From Rhodoferax sp. BLA1 (GTDB lineage Bacteria; Pseudomonadota; Gammaproteobacteria; Burkholderiales; Burkholderiaceae_C): a stretch of 64,000 nt of DNA. Shown piece after piece: positions 1,677 to 28,723 of the stretch (position 1 is the first letter of the stretch; the number at the start of each line of letters is the position of its first letter). The stretch is taken from positions 62,001 to 126,000 of the forward strand of contig NZ_SZVI01000004.1 in the NCBI RefSeq assembly GCF_013416775.1, given 5' to 3'. The notes beneath the pieces were generated by a model that was not told where the DNA came from, ran no database searches, and was given only the letters and a program-made list of their open reading frames with translations. A program made the translations under genes and the position numbers.

Positions 1677-2381
1677 ATGTCACGCCTGCTCCGCCTGACC
1701 CTGCCGGGCTGGCCACACCACATCATCCAGCGTGGCAACAACCGCCAGGCCATTTTTGCCAGCGCGGCGGATTACCGTTTCTGGCTGGACCTGCTGGCGC
1801 AGCAGGCACCCCGTTATGAGGTGTTGATCCACGCCTATGTGCTGATGGACAACCACTTCCATCTGCTGGCCACCCCCAAGACCGCTGACGGCCTGCCCAA
1901 ACTGATGCAGGCCGTGGGGCGCAGTTATGTGCGGTACTTCAACCAAAGCCAGCAACGCACCGGCACCTTGTGGGAGGGGCGTTACCGCTCAACCGTGATC
2001 CAACCCGAGCGTTATCTGCTGGCCTGTATGGTCTACATGGACCTGAACCCGGTGCGCGCCGGTCTGGTGGCGCAGGCCCAGGACTACCCCTGGTCCAGCC
2101 ATGGACATTGCCTGGGGCAGCGGGTGGACCGGTTGATCACGCCGCACGCCGTGTTCTGGCAGCTGGGCAACACCCCGTTTGCCCGTGAATCCGCTTACGC
2201 CGAGTTGGTGCGCTCAGGCATCAACTCGGTGCAACAGGCGGCGCTGACCGAGTCCACCCTGGCCGGTTGGGCCCTGGGGGAGCCGGATTTTGTGGCAAAT
2301 TTGCAAAAAAACACCGAGCGTCGAGTGGTCAAAAAAGCCGCCGGGCGACCCGTATCAGCCCCCAAAATAATCATGAAATAG
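1677..2381 (+). CDS. REP-associated tyrosine transposase (RAYT, Y1_Tnp)
   Basis: This 234-residue protein belongs to the Y1 single-strand transposase superfamily. It starts with the RAYT signature GWPHHIIQRGNNR and has the HUH metal-binding motif as H60-F61-H62 in MDNHFHLL. The segment SYVRYFNQ supplies the candidate catalytic tyrosine (Y84), followed by GTLWEGRYRS and the conserved YMDLNPVRAGLV. RAYTs are domesticated relatives of the IS200/IS605 transposase, usually present once per genome and thought to mobilise REP palindromes. All motifs are intact, so it may be active. Its stop codon lies inside a copy of the dispersed palindromic repeat found throughout this window. Confidence 0.9.
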   Translation: MSRLLRLTLPGWPHHIIQRGNNRQAIFASAADYRFWLDLLAQQAPRYEVLIHAYVLMDNHFHLLATPKTADGLPKLMQAVGRSYVRYFNQSQQRTGTLWEGRYRSTVIQPERYLLACMVYMDLNPVRAGLVAQAQDYPWSSHGHCLGQRVDRLITPHAVFWQLGNTPFARESAYAELVRSGINSVQQAALTESTLAGWALGEPDFVANLQKNTERRVVKKAAGRPVSAPKIIMK

Positions 2382-2428
2382 GGCTCCAGCCCTTAAATCA
2401 AAAGAGATTATTGCTATGTTTATTAATA
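2376..2428 (+). repeat. Dispersed TAGCCCTT repeat, degenerate copy at the RAYT 3' end
   Basis: The sequence AAATAGGGCTCCAGCCCTTA, followed after a degenerate right arm by TTGCTATGTTTATTAATA, aligns over about 50 bases with the better preserved copy at 28654-28710. The TAG stop codon of the RAYT is part of it. Downstream, to the gltB start, an AT-rich tract contains ATTGGTATCTGACCCC at 2469-2484. From memory, similar tracts flank other Y1 transposase genes, so it may be part of the element; this is an inference. Confidence 0.55.
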
Positions 2429-2557
2429 TGTCCCTAATTTAATTTCCTGAAAGTCGGATAATTTGCAATTGGTATCTGACCCCTATTAATTGCTTTGGCA
2501 TCCTTGTTGCAATGCGGTACAGTCAAGCCCTTTTCGATACTTTTAGGAGCGCGCCCC

Positions 2558-7312
<4,755 letters not shown>

Positions 7313-16087: not shown

Positions 16088-16110
16088 GCGGTTGAGTATT
16101 CCTGTTTTTA

Positions 16111-16149
16111 TAGCTACCCGCCCTTTTTAAATAAGGGCTAGAGGCCAAA
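16111..16149 (-). repeat. Dispersed palindromic repeat directly before hisG
   Basis: On the minus strand this reads TTGGCCTCTAGCCCTTATTT followed by the second arm and TAGCTA, a good copy of the family. The plus-strand end AGAGG at 16140-16144, five bases before the hisG ATG, works as a ribosome binding site, so the repeat runs exactly to the start codon. Confidence 0.75.
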
Positions 16150-16785
16150 ATGATCACTATTGCACTGTCCAAGGGCCGGATTTTTGAAGAAACCATTCCT
16201 CTCCTCAAAGCCGCCGGCATTGAGGTGCTGGAAGACCCGGACACCTCGCGCAAACTCATCCTGACCACCAACCAGCCCGATGTGCGGGTGCTGGTGGTGC
16301 GCGCCACCGACGTGCCCACCTATGTGCAATACGGCGGTGCCGACATGGGCATCACCGGCAAAGACACGCTGCTGGAGCACGGCAGCCAGGGCCTGTACCA
16401 GCCGCTCGATTTGCAGATTGCCAAATGCCGCATCAGCGTGGCGGTGCGTTCGGACTTTGATTACAAAAGCGCGGTCAAAAAAGGCTCACGGCTCACGGTG
16501 GCCACCAAATACGTGGCGATTGCGCGCGACTTCTTTGCCAGCAAAGGTGTGCACGTTGACCTGATCAAACTCTACGGCAGCATGGAACTCGCGCCGCTGG
16601 TGGGCATGGCCGACGCGATTGTGGACCTAGTGTCCACCGGCAACACGCTCAAGGCCAACCATTTGGTTGAGGTCGAACACATCATGGACATCAGCTCGCG
16701 CCTGGTGGTCAACCAGGCCGCACTCAAGCTCAAACAGGCGCCCATGCGCCACATCATTGACGCGTTTGAGTCAGCTATCGCTTGA
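16150..16785 (+). CDS. hisG: ATP phosphoribosyltransferase catalytic subunit (short form)
   Basis: HisG catalyses the first step of histidine synthesis. The 211-residue length and the absence of the C-terminal regulatory ACT-like domain mark the short form, which needs HisZ for activity and feedback control; hisZ is not in this window. Recognisable blocks are [31 protein letters not shown] and the PRPP-binding segment [17 protein letters not shown]. The ribosome site AGAGG belongs to a repeat copy. The rest of the his operon is displaced by accessory genes. Confidence 0.96.
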
Positions 16786-16965: not shown

Positions 16966-17010
16966 TTATGCCTCTAGCCCTTTTGCAACAAGGGTGAGTT
17001 GCTCTCATCG
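16966..17010 (+). repeat. Degenerate dispersed repeat in the hisG-DUF1877 gap
   Basis: TATGCCTCTAGCCCTTTTGC followed by AACAAGGGT and GTTGCTCTCAT aligns with the repeat family. It lies in a 459-base stretch (16786-17244) without a supportable gene. Apart from this copy I see no RNA gene, clear promoter or long palindrome there; the open frames present have unlikely composition. Confidence 0.5.
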
Positions 17011-28655: not shown

Positions 28656-28710
28656 GCCAAATAGGCCTCTAGCCCTTATGCAATAAGGGCTGATAGCTAT
28701 ATTTTTTATA
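28654..28710 (+). repeat. Best-preserved dispersed palindromic repeat (reference copy)
   Basis: AAGCCAAATAGGCCTCTAGC is followed by CCTTATGCAATAAGGG, forming the palindrome, then CTGATAGCTATATTTTTTAT. I used this copy to judge the others. It separates hisF from hisI. Confidence 0.8.
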
Positions 28711-28723
28711 AGTCATCCTGATC

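Follow-up and report, generated by a model that had tools for sequence, protein, structure and literature searches.

The RAYT gene of the window (the whole stretch of 64,000 nucleotides of Rhodoferax sp. BLA1 analysed here) ends at a copy of a palindromic repeat that is abundant in the same genome. The question raised by this locus is whether the repeat is the substrate of the transposase, as the sequence-only reading had proposed, or merely its neighbour. The gene, its motifs and the gene that follows it are located as follows.

1677–2381, plus strand: RAYT (HUH/Y1 transposase) of 234 amino acids, TAG stop codon at 2379–2381 (open reading frame, protein search, Pfam, NCBIfam)
1848–1865, plus strand: codons of the HUH motif, DNHFHL (motif reading; NH-x-H in 78/79 orthologues)
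2034–2051, plus strand: codons of YMDLNP with the presumed catalytic Tyr120 (Y-x3-NP in 77/79 orthologues)
2558–7312, plus strand: gltB, glutamate synthase large subunit (NCBIfam PRK11750, 1694 bits)

The transposase is intact, as had been claimed from the sequence. The product of the 234-amino-acid reading frame matches Pfam Y1_Tnp (E 1.3e-9) and contains both the HUH and the Y motif; the motifs DNHFH, LWEGR and YMDLNP begin at residues 58, 98 and 120, respectively. The form YIDLNP is found in 61/79 orthologues. The match to the NCBIfam model 'REP-associated tyrosine transposase' (E 1.2e-21, 77.2 bits) lies below the cut-off of 80. Judged by length, a C-terminal extension is present, and Pfam reported no helix-turn-helix at E ≤ 5 in five of these RAYT proteins. 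The gene is the sole RAYT match in its own 4.46 Mb genome (protein search, E ≤ 0.01) and also the sole Y1_Tnp match by Pfam. The dN/dS ratio against two sister genomes is 0.10–0.11; the RAYT is under purifying selection. The orthologous loci comprise the window and the 80 best-scoring of 352 candidate relatives; gltB lies just 3' of the RAYT in 78/81 of them, and the nearest named relative among these best 80 is that of Rhodoferax sp. U11-2br (97% identical). A match at E ≤ 1e-10 was obtained in 77/89 genomes of the own genus, including G018, which holds a distant relative only. Selection maintains the RAYT, whose location is fixed; it does not behave as an active insertion sequence. An IS200/IS605 element was considered and rejected, since the gene occurs as a single copy with Y-x3-NP rather than as several near-identical copies with Y-x3-Q. 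In G006, a single-contig genome of the own genus without this RAYT, seven Y1_Tnp matches were seen (loci L113, L122, L125 and L128–L131), three of them equal in score; they probably represent an IS200-type element.

To describe the local repeat, a model was made of nine copies in the window, without the RAYT-linked one. With this model, the nine copies that went into it score 52.7–70.5 bits.

16096–16158, minus strand: local repeat copy, 63.1 bits
16957–17019, plus strand: local repeat copy, 54.8 bits
19513–19575, plus strand: local repeat copy, 52.7 bits
21022–21084, minus strand: local repeat copy, 62.1 bits
28652–28714, plus strand: local repeat copy, 67.2 bits
33996–34058, plus strand: local repeat copy, 58.1 bits
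46900–46962, minus strand: local repeat copy, 70.5 bits
52144–52206, plus strand: local repeat copy, 57.1 bits
63099–63161, minus strand: local repeat copy, 62.5 bits

The repeat is real and abundant in the genome, which has 345 matches to a 26-nt repeat pattern (≤3 mismatches) and none to the reversed control. Of 1491 candidates in the genome, 150 were scored with the model, and every one of them reaches 41 bits. Compared with the sister genome G002 (main aligned blocks 88–94% identical), 9/11 window repeats are in place, one of them 45 nt beyond the end of an aligned block. The repeats at 16970 and 52157 are without counterpart in G002 and are located within unaligned segments or at their margins. 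The family gives no clean sign of recent movement and appears to be mostly static now. Many copies (window 28665–28714, L083–L112) have a second short inverted repeat, AGCTAT...ATAGC, behind the main hairpin, which shows paired changes such as AGCTCT...AGAGC. The dominant arm type of the repeat varies between genomes of the genus, and separate old loci match the type of their genome, which may reflect concerted change of copies that stay in place, or just common ancestry.

The copy at the RAYT stop codon is a much poorer member of this family.

2369–2431, plus strand: degenerate local repeat copy overlapping the RAYT stop (model extent; 36-nt core 2382–2417; model, shuffles, orthologues)

Scored with the model made without it, this copy reaches 14.5 bits (E 0.34). 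It differs at 7/28 specified positions, with the left arm intact and the right arm mutated. When the region was shuffled 100 times, none of the shuffles matched the repeat as well, and one shuffle each of 22 stretches (411 kb) gave no match at ≤8 mismatches. Better copies, down to 1/28 mismatches, are present at the same place in orthologues (G004, G001, G052). The model gave 22 hits in 80 orthologous loci, and because 12 of the 22 start at locus position 3692–3693, the 3' end of the RAYT, the linked copy is taken to be ancestral. No copy was found 5' of the RAYT, either in the window sequence or among the model hits. The statement that the stop codon sits inside a repeat copy thus holds in part: the TAG at 2379–2381 belongs to an AAAT-N-GG flank common to several window copies, but it lies just outside the palindrome, whose core begins at 2382, and the copy is poor. 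Two inverted flanking copies, as expected of a REP-associated RAYT, are not present: there is a single degenerate copy on the 3' side and none on the 5' side. The repeat copy at the stop is real, ancestral, one-sided and decaying.

The conservation of this copy was compared among 79 genomes hand-picked from those with listed RAYT coordinates (43 with at least 20 repeats, 35 with at most 12 and one with 19; the counts are combined from several separate searches). The repeat is found at the stop at ≤8 mismatches in 11/79 loci. The median number of mismatches is 8 in the 43 repeat-rich and 14 in the 35 repeat-poor genomes, the latter being near the mean of about 15 for shuffles of the stop region. 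The corresponding Mann–Whitney test (p 2.5e-7) was not accepted as independent evidence, as there are two supported pairs on the RAYT tree. A second, minus-strand repeat about 4.1 kb upstream served for comparison. It is conserved at ≤6 mismatches in 9/9 own-genus genomes whose stretch reaches there, and the stop copy is present at ≤8 mismatches in the same nine. The arm type of this upstream copy (CCC/GGG, CGC/CGC or mixed) equals the dominant type of its genome in 8/9 cases, and the ninth has an altered right arm. Outside the genus, 4/10 repeat-rich stretches hold the stop copy at ≤8 mismatches and 1/10 holds a repeat near −4.1 kb, a position at which the order of genes may be different. The arm-type match of the linked copy had looked like coevolution of RAYT and repeat, but the repeat 4.1 kb away shows a match of similar quality, so that no special link of the stop copy to the RAYT is indicated by it. 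Within the genus, the stop copy is an ordinary old member of its family; the wider comparison leaves some room. A repeat-like segment with 7/28 mismatches was also noticed at 7252–7287, where it is read in frame as part of the C-terminal end of gltB (5–9 mismatches in relatives of the genus); the C-terminal tail of gltB may have been gained from a repeat.

The sequence-only reading had itself named a different palindrome at the orthologues as speaking against its proposal, and such a palindrome was found.

2426–2439, plus strand: RTGTCCC box (GGGACAY on the opposite strand), the first of two boxes conserved 3' of the gene
2467–2487, plus strand: downstream terminal inverted repeat (TIR), AATTGGTATCTGACCCCTATT, the only match in its own genome

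The 21-nt palindrome AATTGGAATCTGACCCCAATT is present 3' of the RAYT at ≤4 mismatches in 78/79 loci, compared with 0/79 shuffled ones, and its inverse is present 5' of the RAYT in 44/78 loci. Two loci, L018 and L060, were left out of this count as too short, and L037 starts inside the gene and so has no measured 5' end. An ATRTGTCCC box precedes the 3' TIR by about 40 nt in 62/81 loci. In the window itself, no 5' TIR is left. The consensus end and the TIR of the window (minus strand) both contain GGGGTCAG, which fits the motif GGGGWSAS. The three genomes of the own species (G000, G002 and G034) have one TIR each and 345, 328 and 305 repeats, respectively. Between the RAYT and gltB, a sequence TTGGCAT-N5-TTGCA (2495–2511) is conserved in many of the orthologous loci inspected; it resembles a sigma-54 promoter. 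Among the open-licence papers listed by searches, no report of either repeat was recognised for Comamonadaceae, Rhodoferax or Polaromonas. The available part of the Rhodoferax ferrireducens genome paper uses 'palindromic' of CRISPR only (PMC2755013).

Whether the repeat number follows the RAYT was analysed in a family sample of 397 genomes at least 90% complete, 258 of them with a RAYT at E ≤ 1e-60 and 139 without a match at this threshold, several of which carry distant relatives; G434 was counted among the 139 since its gene is in pieces. At least one repeat is present in 103/397 genomes. Counts of at least 26 repeats occur only in genomes with the RAYT (35/258 vs 0/139), so that as a count repeat abundance is not unrelated to the gene, and at least 10 repeats are found in 51/258 and 8/139 genomes, respectively. 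No repeat at all was found in 173/258 genomes with the RAYT. In the own genus, 23/76 genomes with and 0/12 without the RAYT reach 26 repeats; the rank test of repeat number gave p 0.055 (76 vs 13 genomes) and p 0.070 (49 vs 5 genomes at least 90% complete). The within-genus test covered three genera that are mixed for the RAYT and include a genome with five or more repeats. Here, the counts with and without RAYT are 75 and 78 vs 5, 7 and 25 in g66, 126, 9, 17 and 20 vs 1 and 0 in g14, and 11 vs 4, 13 and 2 in g105. Overall, genomes that lack the gene have fewer repeats (stratified permutation p 0.0065); applied to TIR counts, this test gave 0.0064. The prediction that repeat number falls without the gene holds in these figures as a count, but the distribution is phylogenetically clustered: on the tree of 79 RAYTs, repeat-richness takes eight changes, with two supported independent pairs. 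Moreover, G334 and G391, each on one contig, have 18 and 16 repeats and no RAYT by Pfam or tblastn, and no RAYT was found in G068 (82% complete, 24 repeats). The claim of 'no Y1 transposase in genus g86', taken from Pfam (4/6 genomes without match), was wrong in part: tblastn gives a 40–41% identical relative in 4/6, while G334 and G391 have none by either method. The association between repeat and RAYT is real as a count and is not separated from ancestry.

The TIR was counted in the same sample with a threshold of at least three copies, which excludes the two ends of the gene itself. This number is reached by 89/258 genomes with the RAYT and by 1/139 without it (Fisher 1.4e-18); 169/258 genomes with the RAYT have fewer than three. 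The sole exception without RAYT, G434, has 19 copies, and its RAYT lies in three overlapping pieces (L251), possibly a recent loss. The own genus shows no such contrast, with at least three copies in 65/76 genomes with and 9/12 without the RAYT; 11 of these 12 are drafts of 170–900 or so contigs or otherwise fragmented. The assumption that TIRs follow the RAYT everywhere therefore fails there. Three genomes of the genus (G006, G075 and G080) are without any TIR, and all three are without the RAYT. Away from the gene, the TIRs of relatives form inverted dimers at 18/18 places, which were picked for two nearby matches and hence reveal the form and not the frequency. The spacing from start to start is 48 nt in nine dimers (69 bp overall), 49 nt in one and 52–64 nt in eight, and the hairpin formed by the paired arms has −31 to −47 kcal/mol (RNA parameters). 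Several of the dimers at L231–L248 have a common 27-nt inner part of the type AATT-N-TCAAAA...AAAAG. In G424 and G142, the RAYT is flanked by the same TIR ends, 845–846 nt apart. The dimers resemble RAYT units stripped of their gene and can be compared with REPINs.

These features can be compared with several known arrangements. TIRYTs are described in the accessible part of the literature as RAYT-like genes between inverted repeats with the end motif GGGGWSAS and with TIR families that include dimers (PMC3733652). The present gene resembles these TIRYT/TIRtron units in lying between non-REP TIRs across orthologues, whose ends, GGGGTCAG and a GGGACAY-like one, fit this motif (PMC3733652). It differs in that its upstream end is lost here and in that its genome holds hundreds of copies of an unrelated repeat. 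Although TIRYTs have a helix-turn-helix according to the literature, Pfam showed none in five of these proteins. The available part of the TIRYT paper names neither this TIR family nor its hosts as a group (PMC3733652). Subclass 2.1 of TnpAY1 corresponds to RAYT group 1, described in the text available as without REPs and as probably comprising the TIRYTs (PMC6006769). The length of 234 amino acids (median of the group 238), the NHFH and WE motifs, SS after the tyrosine and the beta-proteobacterial host agree with this group as described there, whereas the Y motif YMDLNP falls between subclasses 2.1 and 2.3 and is nearer to the YVDLNP of the latter (PMC6006769). Members of group 1 have a C-terminal extension with helix-turn-helix similarity; here, the extension is present by length, and the Pfam search of five proteins gave no helix-turn-helix. 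On length and motifs, the RAYT is provisionally assigned to group 1/subclass 2.1. The only PDB sequence match is the E. coli TnpAREP structure 4er8 (E 0.014, residues 50–142), a distant protein of subclass 2.2, which has true REPs according to the available text (PMC6006769).

REP-associated RAYT genes are reported, in the portion of the source available, to be always flanked by two inverted REPs (PMC2817692). The present gene has the superfamily in common with them, as well as a repeat beside the gene and, as a count not separated from ancestry, a repeat number related to gene presence, but it has one worn copy on one side in place of the two inverted REPs (PMC2817692). Of the features of a REPtron, the HUH and Y-x3-NP motifs are thus present, and the two inverted flanking repeats are absent, there being one degenerate 3' copy and no 5' copy. 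REPINs are reported, in the part of the study available, to be commoner in E. coli genomes with a RAYT (PMC8049555). The TIR dimers resemble them as short inverted dimers persisting with a chromosomal RAYT (PMC3116915, PMC8049555, as far as these texts were available). They differ in being built of TIR rather than REP, and they are absent from the genome of the window.

We consider it moderately probable that this single-copy gene is a RAYT of the TIRYT kind, inherited vertically and fixed just upstream of gltB, and that the repeat at its stop comes from a separate family; the hairpin repeat beside the gene is probably incidental. The stop repeat is disfavoured as substrate because it is found in 11/79 loci, compared with 78/79 and 44/78 for the 3' and 5' TIR. 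The TIRYT reading is further supported by the constant place before gltB (78/81 loci), by the low dN/dS, by the family-sample contrast in TIR number (89/258 vs 1/139), by the 18 inverted TIR dimers and the same ends around the gene in G424 and G142, by the repeats of G334 and G391 in which no RAYT was found, by the static position of 9/11 window repeats and by the equal conservation of the repeat 4.1 kb away. It is weakened by the own genus, where the TIRs are not tied to the RAYT while counts of at least 26 repeats are seen only with it, by the within-genus test, which gave the same p of 0.006 for TIR and repeat, by the single TIR beside 345 repeats in the own genome, and by the 169/258 genomes with fewer than three TIRs and the lack of a Pfam helix-turn-helix. 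Our confidence is held at this modest level because the own-genus TIR result goes against it. It is very improbable that the 21-mer 3' of the gene serves the regulation of gltB and is unrelated to the RAYT. It does lie directly before the sigma-54-like gltB promoter in the loci inspected, but its inverse occurs 5' of the RAYT in 44/78 loci and it recurs elsewhere as inverted dimers.

That the RAYT spreads the local repeat, and that the copy at the stop is the remnant of its own flanking substrate, seems unlikely to us, although it accounts for several observations. The RAYT is the only Y1 transposase found in a genome of 345 repeats, counts of at least 26 occur only with it, repeat numbers are lower without it in the mixed genera, the stop region is closer to the repeat in repeat-rich genomes (median mismatches 8 vs 14), and the arm type of the linked copy matches its genome. 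This co-occurrence stands as a count. The role of spreader itself, as put forward by the sequence-only reading, is opposed by the different palindrome at the flanks of the orthologues, by the missing 5' copy and the static nature of most copies, by the repeat 4.1 kb off with the same conservation and arm-type match, by the phylogenetic clustering with two supported independent pairs, and by the own-genus contrast, which is not significant (p 0.055 and 0.070); the linked copy is ordinary in the genus. A doubtful third explanation combines the two palindromes by a substrate switch or double specificity: a TIRYT-type RAYT, which elsewhere has GGGGTCAG-ended dimers and TIRs in most relatives, would here and in some other lineages have adopted the hairpin behind its own stop and multiplied it into the hundreds, while the original ends were lost. 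The one TIR and 305–345 repeats of the own-species genomes, the position of the repeat inside the TIR-bounded unit in several orthologues and the purifying selection that persists without dispersed TIRs are in line with such a switch. However, the genus shows no inverse relation between the numbers of TIRs and of repeats (Spearman −0.11, p 0.32), the linked copy of the own lineage ranks with the more worn copies when repeat-rich genomes of the genus are compared, and most repeat copies are static.

For a RAYT of the TIRYT kind, the enzyme would recognise the TIR ends as folded single strands, as suggested by the HUH family, and would move the gene-less TIR dimers by HUH strand transfer through Tyr120, as RAYTs are thought to do for REPINs. 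In the own species, the upstream TIR end and all dispersed copies are gone, and the RAYT would have no visible partner left or would serve another purpose. The repeat at the stop would belong, as an old copy, to a separate family; it would have provided the stop codon by chance and would now be decaying.

The enzyme of a RAYT gene does not have to act on the adjoining repeat, and such studies require repeats from elsewhere in the genome as controls. Two repeat families with one transposase and many natural losses constitute a direct test system for RAYT specificity. With the TIR dimers, a kind of RAYT described as being without REPs gains a clear REPIN-like dimer family.
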